This document shows positions 189-18,187 of a stretch of 64,000 nucleotides of DNA, one piece after another. The notes beneath the pieces are model-generated. The model saw nothing but the letters and a program-made list of their open reading frames with translations. It did not search any database and was not told the DNA's origin. Made by a program: the position numbers and the translations under genes. The DNA is from an uncultured bacterium (lineage in GTDB: Bacteria > Bacillota > Clostridia > Oscillospirales > Oscillospiraceae): contig CANRXB010000007.1 of NCBI GenBank assembly GCA_947643715.1, forward strand, positions 1-64,000, written 5' to 3'. Each line of letters starts with the position of its first letter. Within the stretch, counting starts at the first letter, position 1.

Positions 189-1046
189 ATGAGGATATTG
201 GTCACCGGCGCCGGAGGCCAGCTCGGCTTCGACGTTTGCCGCGTCCTGGCCGATAGGGGGATGCAGTATCGGGGATCGCCCTCCCAGGCGCTGGACGTCA
301 CGGACCGGGTCGCCGTGTACGAGGAATTGACGGCATACCGTCCGGACGGAGTGATCAACTGCGCTGCCTATACGAAGGTGGATCGGGCGGAGGACGAGCC
401 GGAGGAATGCTGGGCGGTGAACGTGGACGGGGTCCGGAACCTGGCGGCGAGCTGCCGGGAGATCGGGGCGAAGCTGGTCCACCTCTCCACCGACTATGTG
501 TTCTCCGGCGATGGTGAGGGACCTTATGAGACGGAGGACGGCGGAGCACCCCGAAGCGTGTATGGGAAAAGCAAGCTGGCAGGAGAATTGGCGGCGCACA
601 GCCTGTTGCGGGAGTGTTTCGTCGTGCGCACCTCCTGGGCGTTCGGGAAAAGCGAGGCCAACTTCGTCAAGACCATGCTGAGGCTGGCGCAGGAGAGGAG
701 GGAGCTGGACGTGGTGTGCGACCAGATCGGCAGCCCCACCTATACGGCGGACCTGGCCCCGCTGCTGTGCGACATGATCGAGACGGAGCGGTATGGGACC
801 TATCACGCCACCAACGAGGGCGTTTGCTCCTGGGCGCAGTTCGCGCAGGAGATCTTCCGGCTGGCGGGCAAGGACGTCCGTGTCAACGCCGTGCCCACCA
901 GCCGGTATCCCACCAGGGCGGCGAGGCCGCTCAACTCCCGGATGAGCAAGGACAAGCTGGAGCGGATGGGCTTTTCCCGCCTGCCCACGTGGCAGGACGC
1001 TCTGGCGAGATATCTGACGGAAATAGAGGGAGCGCGATCGGTTTGA
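189..1046 (+). CDS. rfbD: dTDP-4-dehydrorhamnose reductase
   Basis: MRILVTGAGGQLGFDV Rossmann motif, STDYVFSGDGEGPYETEDGGAPRSVYGKSKLAGE, typical RfbD/RmlD. Confidence 0.93.
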   Translation: MRILVTGAGGQLGFDVCRVLADRGMQYRGSPSQALDVTDRVAVYEELTAYRPDGVINCAAYTKVDRAEDEPEECWAVNVDGVRNLAASCREIGAKLVHLSTDYVFSGDGEGPYETEDGGAPRSVYGKSKLAGELAAHSLLRECFVVRTSWAFGKSEANFVKTMLRLAQERRELDVVCDQIGSPTYTADLAPLLCDMIETERYGTYHATNEGVCSWAQFAQEIFRLAGKDVRVNAVPTSRYPTRAARPLNSRMSKDKLERMGFSRLPTWQDALARYLTEIEGARSV

Positions 1047-2497
1047 ACAGGAAAAAACTCCAGATGGGCTGTGCTGCGGCGTTGGCCGTATACCTCCTAT
1101 CGGCGGTCCTCTTCTATTGGATCGCGGGGGAACAGCTCCATTTTCGCGTGGAGGAGACCGCCGCAGTCACCCCGGCCCAGCCCATCGGGGAGCTGGTGCA
1201 GGGGATGGAGGTCCGCCAGCCCTTCACGGCGCAGTGCGACGAGGTGACGGGCGTCATGCTCCGCCTGTCCACGTATGGAAGGACGAACACCTGCCGTCTC
1301 ATAGTGAGCCTTTTGGACGGAGAGGGGAGCGTCTTGGCGCAGCAGATCCTCGCCGGAGAGGACATCGAGGACGGCGCCTTACAGAAGGTCTTTTTCGCCC
1401 AGCCCGTCCGTGTGGATCGTGGCAAGTGGTATGCGGTGGTGCTGGCCTCGCCGGACGGGACGCCGGGGAACGCCGTGACGGTCTGGCAGGGGAACACCAT
1501 ATCCGCCGCTCGGACAGAGATCCCGGTGGAGATCCCGGCGGGACAGGAGCTGCTGATCGACGGGGCGCCGCAATGGGGGATGCTGCATGTGACGGTACAG
1601 ACCCGCAGCCATATGCAGTTCGGGGCCTTCTATTGGTATTGGGCAGCGGGCGGCGGAGCGCTTCTGGCGTGTTACTGCGGATATCTGCTCTATGCGGTGG
1701 GGAAAGGGAAAGACGTCCTGATATTGCGTGTGATCTCCGCGTTCCGGCGATATGGCTATCTGATGCGCCAACTGATCGCCCGGGACTTCAAGACCAAGTA
1801 TAAACGCTCGGTGTTGGGCATCCTTTGGAGCTTCCTCAATCCGTTGCTGACCATGGCGGTGCAGTATGTGGTGTTCTCCACCATATTCAGATCGGACATC
1901 CCCAACTTCCCGCTCTATCTGCTGACGGGCATCGTGTGCTTCAACTTTTTCAGCGAAGCTTCCAGTATGGCGCTCCAGTCCATCGTGGGCAACGCGTCCC
2001 TGATCACGAAGGTATACGTCCCAAAGTATATCTATCCGGTGTCCCGGGTGCTGTCCTCCACGGTGAACCTGCTGCTGTCCCTGATCCCTCTGCTGGCGGT
2101 GATGCTGCTGACCGATACGCCGGTCCGGCCGGCCATCCTCCTGCTGCCCTTCGGGCTGGTGTGTCTGGTGGTCTTTTCCATCGGGGTCGGCTTCATCCTG
2201 TCCACGGCGATGGTGTTCTTCCGGGACACCCAGTTCTTATGGGGCGTAGTGTCGATGCTCTGGATGTACCTGACCCCGATCATCTATCCGGAGAGCATCA
2301 TCCCGGCGCAGTTCATGACGCTGTATAAATGCAACCCGCTCTATCACATCATCCGTTTCATCCGGATCGTGCTGATGGACGGCATCTCGCCGGAACCCAA
2401 GGCGTATGGGCTGTGCATGATTGCGAGCGTGGTGCCGTTTTTGATCGGCGCGGTGATATTCAAGAAGAACCAGGACAAATTCGTACTGAATCTGTGA
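1043..2497 (+). CDS. ABC-2 type polysaccharide export permease with N-terminal TM + extracytoplasmic domain
   Basis: Probable TTG start at 1043 overlapping the rfbD stop; C-terminal half LIARDFKTKYKRSVLGILWSFLNPLLTMAVQYVVFSTIF is a Wzm/TagG-type permease; ~200 aa extra N-terminus. Confidence 0.85.
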   Translation: MNRKKLQMGCAAALAVYLLSAVLFYWIAGEQLHFRVEETAAVTPAQPIGELVQGMEVRQPFTAQCDEVTGVMLRLSTYGRTNTCRLIVSLLDGEGSVLAQQILAGEDIEDGALQKVFFAQPVRVDRGKWYAVVLASPDGTPGNAVTVWQGNTISAARTEIPVEIPAGQELLIDGAPQWGMLHVTVQTRSHMQFGAFYWYWAAGGGALLACYCGYLLYAVGKGKDVLILRVISAFRRYGYLMRQLIARDFKTKYKRSVLGILWSFLNPLLTMAVQYVVFSTIFRSDIPNFPLYLLTGIVCFNFFSEASSMALQSIVGNASLITKVYVPKYIYPVSRVLSSTVNLLLSLIPLLAVMLLTDTPVRPAILLLPFGLVCLVVFSIGVGFILSTAMVFFRDTQFLWGVVSMLWMYLTPIIYPESIIPAQFMTLYKCNPLYHIIRFIRIVLMDGISPEPKAYGLCMIASVVPFLIGAVIFKKNQDKFVLNL

Positions 2498-2505
2498 GGT
2501 CGGGC

Positions 2506-3228
2506 ATGATCAAGGTTGAAAACGTATCGGTCTGCTATCGAATGAGCTTTGACCGGGTGAAGAGCATCAAAGAATACTTGGTGCAGAAGCTCCAGGGAAA
2601 GATCGGGTATGAGGAATTTTGGGCGTTGAAGGACGTTTCGTTCCAGGTGCGAAGGGGTGAGGTGCTGGGGATCGTGGGGCACAACGGGGCGGGGAAGTCC
2701 ACGCTGCTGAAGGTGATCTCCGGGATCCTGAAGCCCACGGGCGGGAGCGTCCAGGTGAAGGGGACGGTGGTGCCCATGCTGGAGCTGGGCAGCGGCTTCG
2801 ACTTCGACCTGACGGGCCGGGAGAACGTGTTCCTGAACGGGGCGATCCTGGGCTATTCCGAGCAGTTCCTGAAGGAAAAGTACCAGGAGATCGTGGACTT
2901 CTCCGAACTGGGCCAGTTCATCGACGTGCCGCTGCGCAACTACTCCTCCGGCATGGTGATGCGCCTGGCCTTCTCCATCGCGGCGATGGTGGATCCCGAC
3001 GTCCTGATCGTGGACGAGATCTTGGCGGTGGGCGACGCGCAGTTCCAAGAGAAGAGCAAGAAGCGGATGCTGGAGCTGATGAGCGGCGGCGCCACCGTCC
3101 TGTTCGTCTCCCACAGCATCGATCAGATCCGGGAGATGTGCGACCGGGTCTTGTGGCTGGAGCACGGAGAGATGAAGCGGATAGGCCGCACAGAGGAGGT
3201 ATGCTGTGCGTATGAACACAACAGATGA
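2506..3228 (+). CDS. Polysaccharide/teichoic acid ABC exporter ATP-binding protein (Wzt/TagH-type, no C-terminal glycan-binding domain)
   Basis: Walker A GHNGAGKST, signature NYSSGMVMRLAF, Walker B VLIVDEILAVGD; ends soon after the H-loop (240 aa). Confidence 0.92.
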   Translation: MIKVENVSVCYRMSFDRVKSIKEYLVQKLQGKIGYEEFWALKDVSFQVRRGEVLGIVGHNGAGKSTLLKVISGILKPTGGSVQVKGTVVPMLELGSGFDFDLTGRENVFLNGAILGYSEQFLKEKYQEIVDFSELGQFIDVPLRNYSSGMVMRLAFSIAAMVDPDVLIVDEILAVGDAQFQEKSKKRMLELMSGGATVLFVSHSIDQIREMCDRVLWLEHGEMKRIGRTEEVCCAYEHNR

Positions 3229-3241
3229 AGGAGGGACAGGG

Positions 3242-4093
3242 ATGAAGGTACTGGTGACCGGCGCCGGTGGATACATCGGCAGACATGTGGTGACGGCGCT
3301 GTGCGATATGGGCGCGGACGTGATCGCGGCGGATCTTCGCACAGATGGGATCGACGGCCGTGCTGCCGCAGTATCTTGCGATATCTTCAGCGGGAAGAAG
3401 GATCTGTATCAGGAGCTGGGCCGTCCGGACGCCTGCTTGCACATGGCGTGGCGGGACGGGTTCGTCCATGACTCCGACGCGCATATGGCGGACCTTTCCG
3501 GCCATTATGGATTCCTTCGGGACATGATCGACGGCGGACTGGGGCATCTGGCGGTGATGGGGACGATGCACGAGATCGGCTATTGGGAGGGCGCGATCGA
3601 TGAGCGCACGCCCTGCGACCCCAAGAGCATGTACGGGATCGCCAAGGACGCGCTGCGCCGCAGTATGTCCCTGCTGGCGGAGAAGCGGGGGATCTGCCTG
3701 CAATGGCTCCGGGCGTACTACATATATGGGGACGATCTGCGCAACCACTCCATCTTCACCAAGCTGTGCGAGGCGGAAAAGGCGGGCAAAAAGACCTTCC
3801 CCTTCACGTCGGGAAAGAACCTCTATGACTTCATCACGGTGGACGAGCTGGCCCGGCAGCTCGCAGCCTGCGTGATGCAGACCGAGACTGTGGGGATCGT
3901 CAACTGCTGCACCGGCCGGCCGGTGAGCCTGGCGGACAAGGTGGAGGCGTTCATCCGGGAGCATGGGTACGCCATCCGCCTGGAGTATGGCGCGTTCCCG
4001 GACCGGCCATATGATTCGCCCGGCGTCTGGGGGGACGCCTCCAAGATAAGAACGATCATGGATCGATCGAGAAGTGGGAGAGAGGACGCATGA
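3242..4093 (+). CDS. NAD-dependent epimerase/dehydratase
   Basis: MKVLVTGAGGYIGRHVV, YGIAKDALR (YxxxK), extended SDR family. Confidence 0.85.
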   Translation: MKVLVTGAGGYIGRHVVTALCDMGADVIAADLRTDGIDGRAAAVSCDIFSGKKDLYQELGRPDACLHMAWRDGFVHDSDAHMADLSGHYGFLRDMIDGGLGHLAVMGTMHEIGYWEGAIDERTPCDPKSMYGIAKDALRRSMSLLAEKRGICLQWLRAYYIYGDDLRNHSIFTKLCEAEKAGKKTFPFTSGKNLYDFITVDELARQLAACVMQTETVGIVNCCTGRPVSLADKVEAFIREHGYAIRLEYGAFPDRPYDSPGVWGDASKIRTIMDRSRSGREDA

Positions 4094-6003
4094 GATTGGA
4101 CGAGGGCAAAAAAGTCGAACGCTTGGCGATCTATTTCTTTTATGACGTGGATGGGATCGTGGACCGCTACGTCACCTCCATGTTGGAGGAGATGGAGCGC
4201 AATTGCAGCGAGCTGTTCGTGGTGTGCAACGGGAAGCTGGCTCCGGAGGGCCGGGAGACGTTCAAAAAGTTCACGCCTCACATCCTGGTGCGGGACAACG
4301 TGGGTTTCGATGTCTGGGCGTACAAAGAAGCCATGGAGCACTACGGCTGGGATGAGCTGGCGCGGTTCGACGAGGTGGTCATGATGAATTCCACCATCAT
4401 GGGTCCGCTGCGTCCGTTTTCCGAGATGTTCCAGGAGATGGACGGGCGGGATCTGGACTTTTGGGGGATCACGAAGCACCATGAGTGCCCGGTGGACCCC
4501 TTCCACAACATCTCCTACGGATACCTCCCGGAGCACATCCAATCTCATTTCATCGCCGTGCGCAGGTCGATGGTCTCCAGCCCTGAATTCCAGGACTATT
4601 GGGAGAGCCGCCCTGCGATCGCTTCCTATGACGAGGCGATCGGGCAGCATGAGGCGATCTTCACCAAGCGGTTCGAAGAGAAGGGATTCCGCTGGGAGAC
4701 CTATGTGGATACCTCCGATATGGAAGGGTTCGCCATCTACCCGCTCACGGCGGCTCCGGTGCGCTTGATCGACCGGTACCGCTGTCCGATCTTCAAGCGC
4801 AGGAGCTTTTTCCACGACTATCGCGACACCCTGACCACTTCCACCGGAGAGGCGGGCAGGGATCTGCTAGCCTATCTGGAGGAAAAGACGGATTATGACG
4901 TCAGCATGATTTGGGAGAACCTCTTGAGGACTTGCAACATGGCGGACATCAAGGCCAGTCTGAACCTGGAGTGGGTCCTGCCGGCCGGCGTCGCGGAGCG
5001 GCCGGATCGTCCGCGAAAGACCGCGCTGATCATCCATTCCTATTTCGAGGATCTGATCGACGATTGTTACGATCATGCGCTGTCCATGCCGGAGGGCAGC
5101 GACGTTTACATCACGACGAACACGAAGGAGAAGCAGGAAAAGATACAGGAGCGGTTCGCCGGCGGGCCCTGGGGCCGGCTCAAGGTCATGCAGATCGAGA
5201 ACAGGGGCCGGGACGTCAGTTCGCTGCTGGTCGCGGCGGCGCCTTATCTGGCGGGATATGACTATGTCTGCTTCATGCACGACAAAAAGGTGGGGCAGTT
5301 GGCCTATGGGGCCATAGGCCACGCCTTCTCGGAGCGGTGCTTCCGGAACCTTCTCGGCTCAAAGGAGCTGGTGCAGAACATCCTCTCCCTGTTCGACCGG
5401 CAGCCGCATCTGGGGATCTTATGCCCGCCCACCCCCAACCATTCGGACTATTATGGAGGGCTCGGCTGCGAGTGGGGGCCCAACTTCGACAACACCGAAA
5501 AGCTGATGGAACGGCTGGGGATATCCTGCCCGATGAGCCGGGACAAGGAGCCTGTGGCCCCGCTGGGGACGATGTTCTGGTTCCGCCCTGCGGCGCTGGA
5601 GAAGCTCACCTCCTTTGGATGGAGGTATGAGGATTTCCCCAAGGAGCCCAATGCGGTGGACGGCACCTTCCTGCACGCGGTGGAGCGCGTCTATCCGTTC
5701 GTGGCCCAGGCCGCGGGGTACTTCAGCGCGTGGGTCGTGTCGGACGATTATGCGCGCACGGAGCTGACCAACCTGACCTACATGCTGCGGGGCATCAACA
5801 CCAGGGCGGTGCAACTGTTCGGCTATAAAGATTACACGGGCCTGGTGCTGACGATGGACTATCTCATCGTTTCACCGAAGGGGCAGGTGGTAGACAAAAA
5901 GATCCGCTGGAAGCGAAAGCTCAAGGAAAAGATACCGGGACCCATTTGGGCCGTCATGAAGAAGGTCTACCATTTCTTCGGCGGGAAACGATGGGTCGGG
6001 TGA
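4090..6003 (+). CDS. Rhamnan synthesis F family protein (RgpF-like), two-module form
   Basis: YFFYDVDGIVDRYV…VVCNGKL…NVGFDVWAYKEAM…VMMNSTIMGPLRPFSEMF; second half carries YVCFMHDKK…GTMFWFRPAAL. Confidence 0.85.
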   Translation: MRLDEGKKVERLAIYFFYDVDGIVDRYVTSMLEEMERNCSELFVVCNGKLAPEGRETFKKFTPHILVRDNVGFDVWAYKEAMEHYGWDELARFDEVVMMNSTIMGPLRPFSEMFQEMDGRDLDFWGITKHHECPVDPFHNISYGYLPEHIQSHFIAVRRSMVSSPEFQDYWESRPAIASYDEAIGQHEAIFTKRFEEKGFRWETYVDTSDMEGFAIYPLTAAPVRLIDRYRCPIFKRRSFFHDYRDTLTTSTGEAGRDLLAYLEEKTDYDVSMIWENLLRTCNMADIKASLNLEWVLPAGVAERPDRPRKTALIIHSYFEDLIDDCYDHALSMPEGSDVYITTNTKEKQEKIQERFAGGPWGRLKVMQIENRGRDVSSLLVAAAPYLAGYDYVCFMHDKKVGQLAYGAIGHAFSERCFRNLLGSKELVQNILSLFDRQPHLGILCPPTPNHSDYYGGLGCEWGPNFDNTEKLMERLGISCPMSRDKEPVAPLGTMFWFRPAALEKLTSFGWRYEDFPKEPNAVDGTFLHAVERVYPFVAQAAGYFSAWVVSDDYARTELTNLTYMLRGINTRAVQLFGYKDYTGLVLTMDYLIVSPKGQVVDKKIRWKRKLKEKIPGPIWAVMKKVYHFFGGKRWVG

Positions 6004-6021: not shown

Positions 6022-7428
6022 ATGGTATTTTCATCGACGATCTTTCTGTTTTTCTTTCTGCCGGCGGTCCTTTTGGGCTATTATCTGATCCGCGCGGAGC
6101 TGCGCAACGCGTTCCTCCTGGTGATGAGCCTGCTGTTCTACGCAGTGGGAGAGCCCAGGTTCGTCTTTGTGATGATGGCGTCCATCGCCGCGAACTATCT
6201 GCTGGGACTGTGCATCTGGCGGGCACGGGACGCCGGGCTGTGGGTGAGGCGCGCGCTGTTGATAGCGACGATGGCGGTGGACCTTGGGATCTTGTTCTAC
6301 TACAAATATTATGATTTCACCATCGCGAACATCGACCGCCTCACCGGCGCGGGACTGCCCCTGCGCCACATCGCGCTGCCGATCGGGATCTCCTTCTTCA
6401 CCTTCCAGGGGATGAGCTATGTGCTGGACGTATACATGGGCAAGAGCGAGGTGCAGAAGGATCCCCTGAACGTGGCGCTCTACGTCGCGCTTTTCCCGCA
6501 GTTGATCGCCGGGCCTATCGTGCGATACAGCGACGTCGCCCGGGAGATCATGTCCAGGAAAGAGACCTTGGACGATTTCGCGTCCGGTGTCCAGCGGTTC
6601 GCGGTGGGCCTGGTGAAAAAGGTCATCCTGTCCAATCAGTTCGCCCTGCTGGCGGACCAAGCGTTTGGGACCGCTCCGGAGTCGTTGGGGGCGGGGCTGG
6701 CCTGGCTGGGCGCGATGGCGTACACGTTTCAGATCTATTTCGATTTTTCCGGATATTCGGATATGGCGATCGGTCTGGGACGCATGTTCGGCTTCCATTT
6801 CCAGGAGAATTTCGACTATCCGTATACGTCGGACAGCGTGACGGTGTTCTGGCGGAAGTGGCACATCTCGCTGTCTAGCTGGTTCCGGGACTATGTCTAT
6901 ATCCCCATGGGCGGCAACCGCCGGGGGAACGTATATCTGCATCTGCTGGCGGTGTTCTTCCTGACGGGCCTCTGGCATGGCGCATCCTGGAACTTCGTGG
7001 TCTGGGGACTTTGGCACGGGGCCTTCCTGATCGGGGAGAGGCTTTTGAGAGGCCGTAGTACTACGGCCTCACTGCCTTTGGCAGTGAGATGGATCTACAC
7101 GATGCTGGTGGTCGTGGTGGGCTGGGTGTTCTTCCGGGCGGCGGACCTGAGCGCGGCGCTGGAGTATCTCAAGTGCATGGCAGGCGCGTCGGGGGCCGGG
7201 GGGACGGAGGCGCTGTACGCCATCCAAGACTACGGCGTGACCTTCGCGGTGGGCGCGGTGGCGATGCTGCCGCTGGCAAAAGGATACCGCCGTTCCTGCG
7301 GCAGAAACGAGGCTTTGTCGAACGTGTCGAGGTTCCTGGAGCCGTTGGCCTGCGGGGCGCTGCTGCTGGTGGGGATCGCATATACGGTCTCGTCCACGTA
7401 CGACCCGTTCATCTATTTCAATTTCTGA
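6022..7428 (+). CDS. MBOAT family O-acyltransferase (AlgI/DltB-like)
   Basis: MVFSSTIFLFFFLPAVLLGYYLI, WRKWHISLSSWFRDYVYIPMGGNRRG, FLTGLWHGASWNFVVWGLWHG. Confidence 0.95.
   Translation: MVFSSTIFLFFFLPAVLLGYYLIRAELRNAFLLVMSLLFYAVGEPRFVFVMMASIAANYLLGLCIWRARDAGLWVRRALLIATMAVDLGILFYYKYYDFTIANIDRLTGAGLPLRHIALPIGISFFTFQGMSYVLDVYMGKSEVQKDPLNVALYVALFPQLIAGPIVRYSDVAREIMSRKETLDDFASGVQRFAVGLVKKVILSNQFALLADQAFGTAPESLGAGLAWLGAMAYTFQIYFDFSGYSDMAIGLGRMFGFHFQENFDYPYTSDSVTVFWRKWHISLSSWFRDYVYIPMGGNRRGNVYLHLLAVFFLTGLWHGASWNFVVWGLWHGAFLIGERLLRGRSTTASLPLAVRWIYTMLVVVVGWVFFRAADLSAALEYLKCMAGASGAGGTEALYAIQDYGVTFAVGAVAMLPLAKGYRRSCGRNEALSNVSRFLEPLACGALLLVGIAYTVSSTYDPFIYFNF
7049..7088. repeat. 22-bp palindrome overlapping a 9-bp-stem hairpin, inside the MBOAT CDS
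   Basis: GAGGCCGTAGTACTACGGCCTC (7049-7070) and CTCACTGCC-TTT-GGCAGTGAG (7068-7088). Confidence 0.9.
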
Positions 7429-8960: not shown

Positions 8961-9845
8961 ATGGAACGGCTGCTGATCTATTTCGTTTATGACAAAGACG
9001 GCACGATCGACGATTACATCCTTTTCGCGCTCGAGAAGCTGAGGCCATTCGTGGAAAAGCTCCTGGTGGTCGCCAACGGCAAGGTGTGCGAGAAGGGACA
9101 GAGGGATCTGGCGCGGTGGGCGGATGAGGTCACGATCAGGCCGAACACGGGCTTCGACGTGTGGGCGTACAAGACCGGAATCGAGTCGGTCGGCTGGGAT
9201 CGGCTGGAGGACTATGACGAGCTGATCCTGATGAACCACACGATCATGGGGCCTGTCTACGATCTGGAGGACATGTTCCGGGCGATGGAGTCGCGGGATC
9301 TGGACTTTTGGGGCATCACGAAATGCTTCGAGGAGAACGACCCGGCGGCGGTCGCCATGTGGAAGAACCCATACGGCTATATCCCGGAACATATACAGTC
9401 CAGTTTTTGCGCGTTCCGCAAGCGTTTGTTCAGTTCCGATGCGTTCCATGCGCTGTGGGACGGTATGCCGATGATCCAGTCCTATCATGAGTCCGGCGGG
9501 ACCTATGAGCAGGTCATCACCAAGAAGTTCGCCGACCTGGGTTATCGGTGGGACTGCTATACGGATCACAGCGGCCTGGATCCCAAGCACTATGGCTGCT
9601 GTCCGCTGATCACAGCGCCTTTGGTGATGGTCAGGGACTTGAAGTCGCCGTTCTTCAAAAGACGCTCCTTCTTCACATCGAAGCTCGAGTTCCCGTCCGC
9701 AGTGCCGTTCGTCCGCGACTTTTGGGATTTCCTGCGTGATGAGACGGAGTATGACACGGGTATGGTGATGAAGAACATGATCCGCTGCTGCAATCAGCGG
9801 GATATCGTCGAGTCCCTGCTGTTGTTCCATGTGATAGATGTCTAA
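8961..9845 (+). CDS. RgpF-like protein, N-module only
   Basis: YFVYDKDGTIDDYIL…VVANGKVC…NTGFDVWAYKTGIE…LILMNHTIMGPVYDLEDMF; ATG 8961; ends after the first module. Confidence 0.8.
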   Translation: MERLLIYFVYDKDGTIDDYILFALEKLRPFVEKLLVVANGKVCEKGQRDLARWADEVTIRPNTGFDVWAYKTGIESVGWDRLEDYDELILMNHTIMGPVYDLEDMFRAMESRDLDFWGITKCFEENDPAAVAMWKNPYGYIPEHIQSSFCAFRKRLFSSDAFHALWDGMPMIQSYHESGGTYEQVITKKFADLGYRWDCYTDHSGLDPKHYGCCPLITAPLVMVRDLKSPFFKRRSFFTSKLEFPSAVPFVRDFWDFLRDETEYDTGMVMKNMIRCCNQRDIVESLLLFHVIDV

Positions 9846-9847
9846 AA

Positions 9848-10834
9848 ATGACGGAGGAGGGGATGGCCGTGGCGAGGGGAGCAGCATGTAAAAAAGCGAT
9901 CTTCATCAATTCCGAGAACATCGTCCTCAAGGACAAGCTCGAAAGGGCCGTGAAGCAGTTCGATGGCTCGTACAGCGTTTTCGTCGGCACGCGATCGGAC
10001 AACGACCTGTCGTCGCTGTGCACAGGGACCGGCGCGTCCTATCGTGATCACGACTACATCGTGTGGATCGATCCGGAGTCGATCTCAAAAAATGAGGTGT
10101 TCCGGAACTATACGGCGAGGCAGGACTACCATGTGTTCGACCTTTTGGAGAGGCGCGAGGTGGTGGAACGGGCGATATCGATCATGGAACAGGACAGCTC
10201 GATCGGCGCGCTCTCTTTTCCCGTGGACTACCTGCAAGCTTCCAATTGGGATCAATACGAATGCTGGGCCGATTATTTCAAGCTGGTGGAGAGATGGATG
10301 CGGGTCAACGACATCGATGTGGGCATCGATATCGACAGACCTCCGGTCATCACCGCGGACGGCTGCTGCGTGATCCGGACGAAGGCCATCTGGGACCTGG
10401 AGGAGCTCCGATTCAAGCTCTATAATACGCAGTTCCTGGCCTTCGCGATCGCCATCATCTGCCAGAAGAACGGTTATCTGCCCCAGTACATGCTGACCAA
10501 GCGGATCTTGATCAACAACAGCTTTGGATATGAGACCTATACGAGCTGGATGCCGGATGTGCTCAAGGTGAAAAAGGAGTATTACAGGCAGCTCACGCAG
10601 TACAACAAGGAGAACCAGGAGTATTTCGAGCAGACCCTGCAATGCTTGAGGGACCAATTGGCGCAGGCCACGCAGTGCCACAGCGAGCGGGAAGCCTATT
10701 TGGAGCAGGTGCAGCAGTCCTTGCAGGGGCAGATCGCCCAGCAGCAGGAGACGATCGCCCAGCTTGGAGCGGAGCTGGAAGCGGCCCGGAGCCGCGCGAC
10801 GCTGCGCGGCAGGCTCCGGCGATTGTTCTCATGA
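9848..10834 (+). CDS. RgpF C-module-like protein with glutamine-rich coiled-coil tail
   Basis: YSVFVGTRSD…YRDHDYIVWIDPES…IICQKNGYLPQYMLTKRILINNSFGYETY resembles the second half of CDS 10831-13263; Q-rich tail; basic C-terminus RGRLRRLFS. Confidence 0.6.
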   Translation: MTEEGMAVARGAACKKAIFINSENIVLKDKLERAVKQFDGSYSVFVGTRSDNDLSSLCTGTGASYRDHDYIVWIDPESISKNEVFRNYTARQDYHVFDLLERREVVERAISIMEQDSSIGALSFPVDYLQASNWDQYECWADYFKLVERWMRVNDIDVGIDIDRPPVITADGCCVIRTKAIWDLEELRFKLYNTQFLAFAIAIICQKNGYLPQYMLTKRILINNSFGYETYTSWMPDVLKVKKEYYRQLTQYNKENQEYFEQTLQCLRDQLAQATQCHSEREAYLEQVQQSLQGQIAQQQETIAQLGAELEAARSRATLRGRLRRLFS

Positions 10835-13263
10835 CCACGACCGAAAGAGAGGGGACCGGCTTGGAGCAGACGGGAAAGAGACATCACACCCATAGGATCG
10901 GCATCTTCTTCTACTATGACGGGGAGGACAAGGTGGACCGGTATGTCGGCGATCTGCTGGACGCGGCCTGCGTCGGGATCGACCGGCTGCTGGTGGTGAG
11001 CAACGGTCCTCTCGACGCGCAGGCCCGCGAGCTCTTCCGGCGGTACGCGGCGAAGGGCGACATCCTCGTGCGTGAGAACCGGGGCTTCGACGTGTGGGCC
11101 TACAAAGCGGGGCTGGATCGCTTGGGTTGGGAGGAGATCGGCGGGTACGACGAGCTGATCCTCTTCAACCACACCATCATCCCCGTCGTTCCCAGCTTCG
11201 CCGGTGTCTTTGAAAAGATGGAGGCCAGGCAGGAGCTCGATTTCTGGGGCCTGACCGCGCATCATGGCTCGCCCAATAAGGACCCGTTCCACGGACCATA
11301 CGGATATCTTCCGGTCCACATCCAGTCGCATTTCCTCGCTTTTCGCAGGAGCGTCACATCCGCCGCCTCGTTCCGGCGCTTTTGGGACGAGCTGGTCCCG
11401 ATCGAAAGCTATGAGGACTCTGTTTCCAGGTTCGAGAGCTACATCACCAAGTGGCTGGAGGACCAGGGCTTCCGCTGGGACGTCTACATAGATATGAGCG
11501 CCCTGGTGAAGTACACGCCGTACCCCCTCTTCGACCTGCCCGTATATGCGGTGCGCGACCATGGCGCGCCCGTCGTGAAACGGAAGGGGTTCGTGATGGG
11601 GAACGAGCATTTCCTGCTCTCCGGCAACGATCCCCTGGTGAGCAGGGAACTGCTGGACTACCTGCGGGCCGAAGGCCGCTGCGACACGGAAAAGATCTAT
11701 GACAATATCATCCGGACCGCGCCGCAGCGGGAGATCTTTGAAAGCGCTGGCATGATGTACCCGGTGTCCCAAAACGCCGGAACACCGGGGCGCAGGCCGT
11801 CGGCTGCGGTGGCGATCGTCGTGGGCCGGGGCTGGGAGCTCGAGCTGGCGTCGTTCAAAGAGCTCGTTTCCCTGTACTCGGTGTTCGTGGTGGCGGAGCG
11901 GGAGTGGATCGAAGCGTTTGGCGACAGGGTCCCGGCGGAGGTCGTCCTCACGCAGAGCGGGACGATAAGGCCCTCTGCGCCCGACCTGTTCACCGGCGCG
12001 CCGTTCGACTATCGGGACTATGAGTTCGTCTGCGTGATCGATCCGCACCAAAAAGACGCCCCCGACGGGACGGTGGAGGCGCAGCAGATATGGAACATGG
12101 GGCAGCTCGTCTTGGTGAGGGAGGCCGTCAGATTACTGCTCACTACCCTCCGGGGGGGGGTTATAGAAACGATGACGGAGGCGCCCCACGTCGGCCTGCT
12201 GACGATCCCGCCGCGTTCCCAGCAGCTCGATCGTTCCGAGCTGATACACCTCTGGAGGACGCACAGAGAGCGGATCCTGGAGCACCTTGGAGGGGTCGAT
12301 CCCGCAGCGTTCACGGAAAAAAGCGTTCCGATGTACATCCAGAGCGGCGTTTTTTGGCTGCGCACCTGCGCAGTCGCAGGAGACGCGGAGCGGATGGAAC
12401 GCTTCTATGAGGACCTGGACGATCCGCGTTGTTTCCATCTGTTCCTGCCGCTGCTGATCCAAAAGAACGGATCCCTGCCCGGTATGGTCTGCGATGAGTC
12501 CATTTTGATGAGCAGGTATTTTGAATTCGGATATGAGGTGCGGCAGATGTATGAGCTCTTGGGGATGAAGAACGAGATGGATCAGATCCGGCAGATATAT
12601 CTGTGCGAAAAGGACGAGCTGGACCAGATCCGGCAGATATACCTGGACGAGAAGGACGAGCTGGACCAGATCCGGCGGATATACCTGGGCGAAAAGGACG
12701 AGCTGGACCAGATCCGGCGGATATACCTGGACGAGAAGGATGAGCTGGGCCAGATCCGGCGGATATACCTGGACGAGAAGGACGAGCTGGACCAGATCCG
12801 GCGGATATACCTGGACGAAAAGGACGAACTGGACCAGATCCGGCGGATATACCTGGATGAAAAAGACGAGCTGGACCAGATCCGGCGGACATATCTGGGC
12901 GAGAAGGACGAGCTGGGCCAGATCCGGCGGATATACCTGGATGAAAAAGACGAGCTGGACCAGATCCGGCGGATATATCTGGACGAGAAGGCGGGATTGG
13001 AACAGCTCCGGTATGGATGCTTGGGCGAGCGGGAGGAGTTGGACCAGATCCGCCAGGCGTATCTCCGCCAGATGGACGCTTTGTCGGCGGCATTGCAGGA
13101 GTGCAGGGAGAGGACGGAGCGCAGCCTGACGGCCAGGGCCGGCCGGGCCTGCAAGAAGATCTGGGCGCGGCTGAAAAGGTGGCTCGGGAGAGCGGACCCG
13201 ACGCCGGCAGGGGCCGATGCGGGCGGGACGGGCCATGATGGGGACCCGGGCAAAGGAGCGTGA
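10831..13263 (+). CDS. RgpF-like two-module protein with 14-aa tandem repeat domain
   Basis: FFYYDGEDKVDRYVG…VVSNGPLD…NRGFDVWAYKAGLD…LILFNHTII; C-terminal (DELDQIRRIYLDEK)n. Confidence 0.8.
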   Translation: MTTTEREGTGLEQTGKRHHTHRIGIFFYYDGEDKVDRYVGDLLDAACVGIDRLLVVSNGPLDAQARELFRRYAAKGDILVRENRGFDVWAYKAGLDRLGWEEIGGYDELILFNHTIIPVVPSFAGVFEKMEARQELDFWGLTAHHGSPNKDPFHGPYGYLPVHIQSHFLAFRRSVTSAASFRRFWDELVPIESYEDSVSRFESYITKWLEDQGFRWDVYIDMSALVKYTPYPLFDLPVYAVRDHGAPVVKRKGFVMGNEHFLLSGNDPLVSRELLDYLRAEGRCDTEKIYDNIIRTAPQREIFESAGMMYPVSQNAGTPGRRPSAAVAIVVGRGWELELASFKELVSLYSVFVVAEREWIEAFGDRVPAEVVLTQSGTIRPSAPDLFTGAPFDYRDYEFVCVIDPHQKDAPDGTVEAQQIWNMGQLVLVREAVRLLLTTLRGGVIETMTEAPHVGLLTIPPRSQQLDRSELIHLWRTHRERILEHLGGVDPAAFTEKSVPMYIQSGVFWLRTCAVAGDAERMERFYEDLDDPRCFHLFLPLLIQKNGSLPGMVCDESILMSRYFEFGYEVRQMYELLGMKNEMDQIRQIYLCEKDELDQIRQIYLDEKDELDQIRRIYLGEKDELDQIRRIYLDEKDELGQIRRIYLDEKDELDQIRRIYLDEKDELDQIRRIYLDEKDELDQIRRTYLGEKDELGQIRRIYLDEKDELDQIRRIYLDEKAGLEQLRYGCLGEREELDQIRQAYLRQMDALSAALQECRERTERSLTARAGRACKKIWARLKRWLGRADPTPAGADAGGTGHDGDPGKGA
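12571..13074 (+). repeat. 42-bp in-frame tandem repeat, 12 units (units 2-10 nearly identical, outer units diverged)
   Basis: Units start at 12571, 12613, 12655, 12697, 12739, 12781, 12823, 12865, 12907, 12949, 12991, 13033; consensus DELDQIRRIYLDEK. Confidence 0.95.
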
Positions 13264-16216: not shown

Positions 16217-16261
16217 CAAAAAGTATACTTTTTGCACACCTTGCCGAAAGGCAAGGTGTGC
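16217..16261. repeat. 18-bp palindrome fused to a 12-bp-stem GAAA-loop hairpin
   Basis: CAAAAAGTATACTTTTTG (16217-16234) directly joined to GCACACCTTGCC-GAAA-GGCAAGGTGTGC (16234-16261). Confidence 0.9.
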
Positions 16262-16312
16262 CATCCCTATTTTTGGATACGAGATATCCCGACGATCAGG
16301 AGGCGGTCTCGA

Positions 16313-18187
16313 TTGCTTGAGCAGATATTGGGCATGCCGTTGGGGCATGTGTTGAGCTGGTGCATCTCGGTATGCGGGAGCTACACGGCGGCCATCGTGC
16401 TGTTCACGGCGGTGACGAAGGTGGCGCTGTTCCCGGTGGCGATGTGGACGAACCGGAACGGGCTGAAGATGGTGGCGTTGATGCCGGAGCTGGACCGGCT
16501 GAAGATCGAGCACTACGGGGACAAAGAGGCGGTGGCGGAGCAGACCCAGGCGCTGTACCGCCGAGAGGGGTATCATCCCCTGGCCGGGACCGTGCCGATG
16601 ATCGTGCAGCTCGTGCTGCTGGTGGGCGTGATCGGCGCGGTACGGGAGGCGCTCGAGGGCGCGCAGAGCATGTTGAGCGTCTATCCCGTCCAGGCGGGCG
16701 GGGCGGCGCTGCTGATGCCTCTGGCGGCGGGGGGCGCCGCGCTGGTGCTGGGCCTGGCGCAAAACCGGCTCAACCCCCTCCAGCGGGAGCAGAGCAGGGC
16801 GTCCCAGTGGATGACCAACGGGCTGTCGATCGGGGTGTCGCTGGCGTTAGGGGCTTTCGTGCCCATGGGCGTGGGGGTGTACTGGATCGCCAGCAACCTG
16901 CTGACCATCGTACAGCAAGTGGCGCTCAACGCGCTGATGCCGCCGTCGCGATATGTGGACTACGAGAAGCTGGCCAAGAGCCGGCAGGAGCTGGCGGGGA
17001 TGGACGCGCTGTCGGCCCACGTGTCCAAGGAGGACCAGCGCAGGGAGAAGGAGGACTACAAGCGGTTCTTCTCCATCGCCAACAAGCACCTGGTGTTCTA
17101 TTCGGAGAGCAGCGGCTTCTACAAATACTTCAAGGGTCTGATCCAGGAGCTGCTCCGGCGCACCAACCTCACGATCCATTATATCACTAGCGATCCGAAG
17201 GACCAGATCTTCGCCATCGCCAAAGAGCAGCCCAGGATCCAGCCCTATTACATAGGTGAGAAGCGGCTGATCACCCTGATGATGAAGATGGACGCGGACA
17301 TGGTGGTCATGACCATGCCGGACCTGGAGAACTTCCACATCAAGCGCAGCTATGTACGCAAGGACATCGAATACGTCTACATGTTCCACTATCCGCTGAG
17401 CACGCACATGGTGCTCCACACCGGCGCGCTGGATCACTATGACACCATCCTGTGTGTCGGCCAGTTCCAGTTCGACGAGATCCGGTACTGTGAGAAGCTG
17501 CACGGTCTGCCGGAAAAGAAGCTGGTGGGGTTCGGCTACGGGCTGTTGGAGGACCTGCGTGACCAGTACGATCGGGATCCTCCTGCGCCCCGGGCGCGCA
17601 AAAAGATCCTGATCGCCCCATCCTGGCAGACGGACAATATCCTGGATAGCTGTATCACGGAAGTGCTCGATCAGCTTTTGGGGCGAGGTTATCAGGTCGT
17701 GGTCCGGCCCCATCCGGAGTATCTGAAGCGCTACCGCCCGCGGATGGATCGGCTGGTGCAGCGTTACGCCGGATATGAGGGCAGCGACCTTGAGTTCGAG
17801 CTGGACTTCACCAGCAGCCGGTCCATCTACGACTCGGACGTGGTGGTGACGGATTGGTCGGGCACGGCTTACGAGTTCGCGTTCGTTACGGGCAAGCCGG
17901 CGGTGTTCATCGATACGCCGCCCAAGATACACAACAGCGAGTACGATCGGTATCCGATGCAGCCGCTGGAGCTGACGCTGCGTTCCCAGGTGGGAGTGGC
18001 GCTGGGCACGGCGGAGCTGGACCAGCTCGCCGCGCGGGTGGAAGAGCTGCTCCAGCATCCGAAGGAATACGAAGAGAGGATCGGCCATGTGTTGGCGGAC
18101 ACGATCTCCAACTTCGGCAGCAGTGCCGGCGTGGGCGCTTCGTATATCATCTCACGATTGAAGGAGAGACAGCAACATGGACGCTGA
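16313..18187 (+). CDS. Fusion: YidC/Oxa1-type membrane insertase domain + CDP-glycerol glycerophosphotransferase (TagB/TagF-like) domain
   Basis: TTG start with RBS AGGAGG 9 nt upstream; N-part GSYTAAIVLFTAVTKVALFPVAMWTNRNGLKMVALMPELDRLKIEHYGDKEAVAEQT…YREGYHPLAGTVPMIVQ; C-part VVVRPHPEYLKRY and DSDVVVTDWSGTAYEFAFVTGKPAVFI. Confidence 0.88.
   Translation: MLEQILGMPLGHVLSWCISVCGSYTAAIVLFTAVTKVALFPVAMWTNRNGLKMVALMPELDRLKIEHYGDKEAVAEQTQALYRREGYHPLAGTVPMIVQLVLLVGVIGAVREALEGAQSMLSVYPVQAGGAALLMPLAAGGAALVLGLAQNRLNPLQREQSRASQWMTNGLSIGVSLALGAFVPMGVGVYWIASNLLTIVQQVALNALMPPSRYVDYEKLAKSRQELAGMDALSAHVSKEDQRREKEDYKRFFSIANKHLVFYSESSGFYKYFKGLIQELLRRTNLTIHYITSDPKDQIFAIAKEQPRIQPYYIGEKRLITLMMKMDADMVVMTMPDLENFHIKRSYVRKDIEYVYMFHYPLSTHMVLHTGALDHYDTILCVGQFQFDEIRYCEKLHGLPEKKLVGFGYGLLEDLRDQYDRDPPAPRARKKILIAPSWQTDNILDSCITEVLDQLLGRGYQVVVRPHPEYLKRYRPRMDRLVQRYAGYEGSDLEFELDFTSSRSIYDSDVVVTDWSGTAYEFAFVTGKPAVFIDTPPKIHNSEYDRYPMQPLELTLRSQVGVALGTAELDQLAARVEELLQHPKEYEERIGHVLADTISNFGSSAGVGASYIISRLKERQQHGR

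Follow-up and report, generated by a model that had tools for sequence, protein, structure and literature searches.

A 42-bp repeat array in an RgpF-type glycosyltransferase gene of an uncultured Clostridia bacterium encodes a candidate rod between enzyme and membrane

An uncultured bacterium of the Oscillospiraceae carries a gene whose 810-aa product consists of an RgpF-type head, a rod of 14-aa repeats and a basic amphipathic C-terminal helix (10831..13263; PF05045, 221 bits). The gene lies in the window, by which is meant the whole stretch of 64,000 nucleotides that was analysed, and all genes and elements given below with window coordinates are on its forward strand. We lean towards the reading in which the array encodes a rod that sets the distance between the enzyme and the membrane in the manner of the WbdD ruler. 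Coiled-coil rulers that set how long a glycan becomes have been described for a few O-antigens of Gram-negative bacteria. Interpreting the array as a ruler or a stalk is reasonable and fits this known kind, and the combination of such a head with a rod built of repeats is new.

The array comprises 12 units of 42 bp at 12571-13074, as obtained by cutting the sequence from 12571 in 42-bp steps, and is the strongest array in the window (TRF: period 42, 10.1 copies, 89% matches, score 666). The unit consensus GACGAGCTGGACCAGATCCGGCGGATATACCTGGACGAGAAG encodes the 14-aa peptide DELDQIRRIYLDEK. Units 1-10 (12571..12990) are near-identical and match the consensus at 34-42 of 42 bases, and they are followed by the degenerate units 11 and 12 (12991..13074), which match it at 25 and 29 bases (17 and 13 differences). 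The initial annotation had described twelve in-frame units of 14 aa, nine of them almost identical and the outer ones degenerate, in an RgpF-like protein, and had proposed a recent expansion. TRF and the stepwise register, which runs from 12571 to 13074, bear out the twelve units and their frame, and the nine near-identical copies are units 2-10, at 38-42 of 42 bases (0-4 differences). Degeneracy of the outer units holds for units 11 and 12, and is milder for unit 1, which is somewhat diverged at 8 bases off the consensus (34/42). Units 7 and 9 have GATGAAAAA in common, units 8 and 10 have TAT in common, and the longest exact repeat inside the array is 56 bp at a distance of 84; these shared variants and this repeat indicate an 84-bp duplication of two units and so support the recent expansion. 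Units 1-10 differ from one another by 15 synonymous and 11 non-synonymous changes, at ~9.3 and ~32.7 sites per unit, which corresponds to a pS of ~0.16, a pN of ~0.034 and a ratio of ~0.2 for changes that are not independent of one another. Because synonymous changes exceed amino-acid changes, the repeat peptide looks conserved, as under purifying selection on the unit. Antisense open reading frames of up to 395 aa cross the array and probably reflect GC-rich coding DNA.

The mechanically called open reading frame of the repeat gene opens at 10642. The ATG at 10831 is the likelier start because it forms an ATGA overlap with the upstream open reading frame ending at 10834 and coincides with the point where homology begins. 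The RgpF-like identity is well founded, as the PF05045 match lies far above the cut-off of 25 bits (3e-65, profile positions 1-461 of 503); in the whole-genome search, profile positions 1-261 alone were matched. Two tandem GT-A-like domains span residues ~21-575 (10891..12555), of which the first is conserved and the second has diverged, with IDPHQK in place of the HDKK of the paralogues. An AlphaFold model built from 47 sequences, which supersedes a poor earlier model from four sequences, has a mean pLDDT of 76.8 and a pTM of 0.71. Residues 20-575 are mostly well modelled, with pLDDT mostly above 85 and a weaker stretch at residues ~310-440, and helices continue with low confidence from the GT body through residue 784. 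The top Foldseek matches are K4 chondroitin polymerase (E 5e-6, with a low whole-chain TM) and other GT-A enzymes. Downstream of the array, RACKKIWARLKRWLGR (13144..13191) is a basic amphipathic helix with a net charge of +7 and a hydrophobic moment of 0.74 at 100 degrees, falls within a low-confidence helix of the model and is a probable membrane attachment. Basic C-terminal tails are common among RgpF relatives, and since many of these have the tail without a rod, the rod here follows the GT body and precedes the usual tail. This agrees with the earlier proposal of a stalk or ruler, as the array is placed between an enzyme head and a membrane-type helix.

Whether the rod is a coiled coil was addressed with the model and with the heptad pattern of the unit. 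If all 12 units form one helix, the array is predicted to extend over ~25 nm. The coiled coil put forward in the initial annotation is upheld in part: the array is helical in the AlphaFold model at low confidence (rod pLDDT about 44-74), but the heptad core, which consists of L, I, Y and E in the best register, is imperfect, and its 3.5-residue moment is matched or exceeded by 23% of shuffled units. The heptad evidence is thus moderate, and a coiled coil is plausible, not strong.

The gene belongs to a cluster that combines rhamnose synthesis, ABC export and several RgpF paralogues. It includes an RmlD-type gene for dTDP-rhamnose synthesis (189..1046; PF04321, 327 bits), an open reading frame with an ABC-2 membrane domain of the Wzm type (614..2497; PF01061, residues 384-587 of the mechanical call), whose true start probably lies farther downstream, and a 299-aa open reading frame for a Wzt-type ABC ATPase (2329..3228; PF00005). 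A profile search of this ATPase up to an E of 0.1 did not find the C-terminal cap-binding domain (Wzt_C), which makes cap-coupled export of the O9a kind unlikely. These genes are followed by a full-length RgpF paralogue that aligns without a coil (4090..6003; PF05045, 642 bits) and an MBOAT O-acyltransferase gene without a poly-G tract (6022..7428; PF03062); an epimerase and an AlgX-like protein were also recognised by Pfam. Directly upstream of the repeat gene, RgpF is split over two genes. The first half (8961..9845, start approximate; PF05045 positions 1-254) has the N-terminal GT domain, and the second half (9848..10834), from its alignment with the repeat protein, has the second GT domain, a coil of ~75 aa without exact repeats and a basic tail. 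A Clostridiales MAG (L045) keeps the same two-gene arrangement, its first gene being of similar size and 59% identical, with 30% identity over 214 aa between the second halves; the split is therefore natural. The repeat gene is followed by two genes without Pfam matches and then by phosphonate genes, namely those for PEP mutase and phosphonopyruvate decarboxylase. Beside these phosphonate genes, one open reading frame (16232-18187) fuses a YidC/Oxa1-like domain with a weak match to CDP-glycerol glycerophosphotransferase.

From these features a mechanism can be proposed. The product of the array would be a helical rod, most probably a parallel coiled coil, and this rod would keep the two-domain RgpF-type glycosyltransferase ~25 nm off the membrane if the 12 units form one helix; the basic C-terminal helix would dock there, close to the ABC exporter and the remaining glycosyltransferases. 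A head at such a distance would act on long chains and so serve as a late or terminating transferase, and growth of the array by units of 14 aa (two heptads, ~2 nm) would alter the rod length while keeping both the frame and the helical phase. What is observed is the array, the head, the tail, the genes around them and the surplus of synonymous over amino-acid changes between units; the oligomerisation of the helix, the membrane docking, the late-acting role and the effect of length are inferred. Support comes from the order of head, coil and basic tail that WbdD shares, from the rhamnose and Wzm/Wzt genes clustered with the repeat gene, from the independent coil arrays in other Clostridia, from the excess of synonymous changes between units and from the non-repetitive coil that the adjacent paralogue (9848..10834) has at the same place. 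Against it count the GT head in place of a kinase/methyltransferase, the low model confidence of the rod, the lack of a significant heptad enrichment among the arrays surveyed and the constant length of WbdD among the E. coli matches listed. The weakest steps are the evidence for the coil and the cap-binding Wzt that was not found.

The main rival to the ruler is a simple stalk, in which the rod would serve for oligomerisation and membrane tethering and its exact length would be irrelevant, drifting by slippage under weak constraint. We regard this as a serious possibility that falls short of probable. Glycan enzymes of several kinds bear coils with basic tails, the coil of the neighbouring paralogue is shorter, a cap-recognising Wzt was not found in the profile search, and purifying selection on the unit is just as compatible with a stalk. 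A stalk, however, requires neither units that are exact multiples of the heptad nor a rod about as long as that of WbdD, and in the experiments with WbdD the length of the coil matters (PMC5082667). Improbable, in our estimate, is that the repeats arose neutrally, through replication slippage and unequal crossing-over, in a GC-rich gene that merely tolerates them. The genome contains much slippage-prone sequence, in the form of G9-G15 tracts and a pentanucleotide run, and the central units are homogenised while the outer ones are degenerate; yet, per site, synonymous changes between units are ~5 times as frequent as amino-acid changes, and other lineages also have a coil placed between head and tail. 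Least probable is an array length produced by the assembly. The genome is a draft of 93 contigs and a comparable array in another genome (L068) runs into Ns, but the units are told apart by diagnostic bases, and short-read collapse or expansion is unlikely, since a read of ~100 bp spans the longest exact repeat of 56 bp.

Searches of the genus (36 genomes), the order (149 genomes), viral contigs and the public genome collections, among them the GTDB species collection, gave no orthologue of the repeat protein, and a search of plasmids returned distant RgpF heads only. RgpF is itself rare in the order (2/149 genomes). A phylum-wide search with the repeat alone gave as its best match a short coil protein that carries ATKDELGQI repeats (L019), is unrelated and was judged convergent, and TAL-effector matches in a PDB profile search were dismissed as repeat artefacts with no single significant stretch. 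In-frame coil arrays were also surveyed at 79 RgpF loci from named genomes. One is on RgpF itself (L052, 28 aa x 2.5), and a genus search around that locus found no like coil. Others are on a pyruvyltransferase (L047, 14 aa x 3.2), on a gene that appears kinase-like by eye (L077, 14 aa x 2.1) and, in a Clostridia MAG, on a methyltransferase directly upstream of RgpF (L068:6470-7759, 28 aa x 3.2, the array that runs into Ns), which is a WbdD-like arrangement; a further array has an 18-aa basic unit in a gene without a Pfam family (L102). The coil arrays in Clostridia are independent of one another and are found on RgpF or on neighbouring enzymes, most of them with units of 14 or 28 aa. Over all arrays surveyed, heptad-multiple periods are not significantly enriched (6/10 coil-like arrays vs 13/36, p = 0.16); in a post hoc comparison of units of at least 14 aa, the period is a heptad multiple in 4/5 coil-like arrays and in 0/8 others.

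The repeat gene contains a second element that may be prone to slippage; the initial annotation had mentioned neither this element nor the amphipathic C-terminus nor the WbdD-like order. A G9 homopolymer (12152..12160), a candidate slippage switch, lies at the end of an 8-residue insertion (residues ~434-441) that has a gap fraction of 1.00, being absent from every aligned relative that covers the site. It is the sole G9/C9 run in the window, where shuffles predict ~4. It is a homopolymer of at least 8 bases in coding sequence at which slippage by one base loses the frame: with a G gained or lost, the protein would end at 526 or 444 aa, before the rod. The 10-bp sequence CACTACCCTC precedes the tract with one C between, and it directly precedes a G11 tract (C23:14257-14267) on contig C23, where a second RgpF cluster includes an MBOAT gene (L016:12889-14352) that contains this tract. 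As assembled, the C-terminus of that MBOAT is out of frame with its paralogue in the window (contig C7), and it matches with one G fewer. The combination of CACTACCCTC with poly-G occurs at two sites of this genome and in 0/98 relatives. Within another RgpF paralogue of the C23 cluster there is a perfect (AGGAC) x 11 run (L016:4077-4132), at which slippage by 5 bp would shift the frame.

Four acyltransferase-3 genes, two on contig C13 (L150) and one each on C38 (L149) and C56 (L148), have poly-G tracts of 10-15 inside them or at their end, and both genes on C13 appear frame-shifted at the tract. Several poly-G or poly-C tracts near contig ends were excluded, as they look like low-quality assembly ends. 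The sequence of the poly-G genes suggests contingency genes of a phase-variable glycan system, and the O-acyltransferase genes among them may possibly form a set for phase-variable O-acylation. A broader and rather speculative proposal, which we rate as unlikely, is that one gene would carry two slippage devices on a glycan ruler, the G9 as an on/off switch and the heptad-phased 42-bp array as the setting of rod length, and would belong to a poly-G contingency set, mostly of O-acyltransferases, that diversifies surface glycans. The repeat gene resembles poly-G contingency genes such as the pilus slippage switch of Bifidobacterium breve (PMC9187656) in having a slippage-prone run in a gene for a surface structure, and differs in being known from one assembly.

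If the ruler reading is true, the ruler principle would extend to another class of glycan, by way of a repeat rod on an RgpF-type enzyme in Clostridia-like bacteria, and ruler length would evolve through in-frame duplication of heptad-multiple units. The arrays on methyltransferase, kinase-like and pyruvyltransferase genes by RgpF in other Clostridia suggest a repeated origin, and together with the poly-G tracts the gene offers a testable case of surface glycans that are both switchable and tunable in an uncultured bacterium.

Among the closest systems known is WbdD of E. coli O9/O9a, which has an N-terminal catalytic head, a long coil and a C-terminal membrane-associated amphipathic region, the coil and the membrane role being predicted in the repeat protein; this order of head, coil and basic tail has been described for coil terminators (PMC11231755; PMC5082667). 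WbdD of E. coli HS, taken from the annotated locus beside wbdA, wzt and wzm, likewise ends in a coil, the motif SRSWRMTKGYR and a basic tail. Both proteins are encoded in ABC-transporter glycan clusters (here the PF01061 and PF00005 genes), and the rod lengths are close, as the WbdD head is held ~20 nm from the membrane (PMC5082667) and the rod here may reach 25 nm. Changes in the WbdD coil shift the modal chain length, so that coil length matters in experiments (PMC5082667; PMC11231755). The WbdD ruler appears to be without length variation in E. coli, since all 48 of the 48 full-length matches listed, down to 90% identity, are 2127 bp. The heads are not homologous, WbdD having a methyltransferase plus a kinase and the repeat protein an RgpF-type double GT head, and unlike that of WbdD the coil here is built of near-identical DNA repeats; the cluster also differs from O9a in its Wzt, on which the cap-binding domain was not found. 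The methyltransferase and kinase heads borne on coils in L068 and L077 follow the WbdD pattern. With RgpF, the rhamnan synthesis protein F of streptococci and Lactococcus (PF05045), the repeat protein shares the profile, the motifs of the N-terminal domain and the adjacent ABC exporter; most RgpF members compared have a short basic tail without a rod, whereas the repeat protein has a rod and a diverged second domain. WbbB of Klebsiella O12 and the O4/O7 coil terminators differ in their Kdo-transferase or methyltransferase-kinase heads and in belonging to Gram-negative O-antigen loci (PMC11231755). In those systems, as would be the case here, a coil parts the terminal enzyme from the membrane-proximal polymerising modules, and in systems of the WbbB type a glycosyltransferase can serve as the terminator (PMC11231755).
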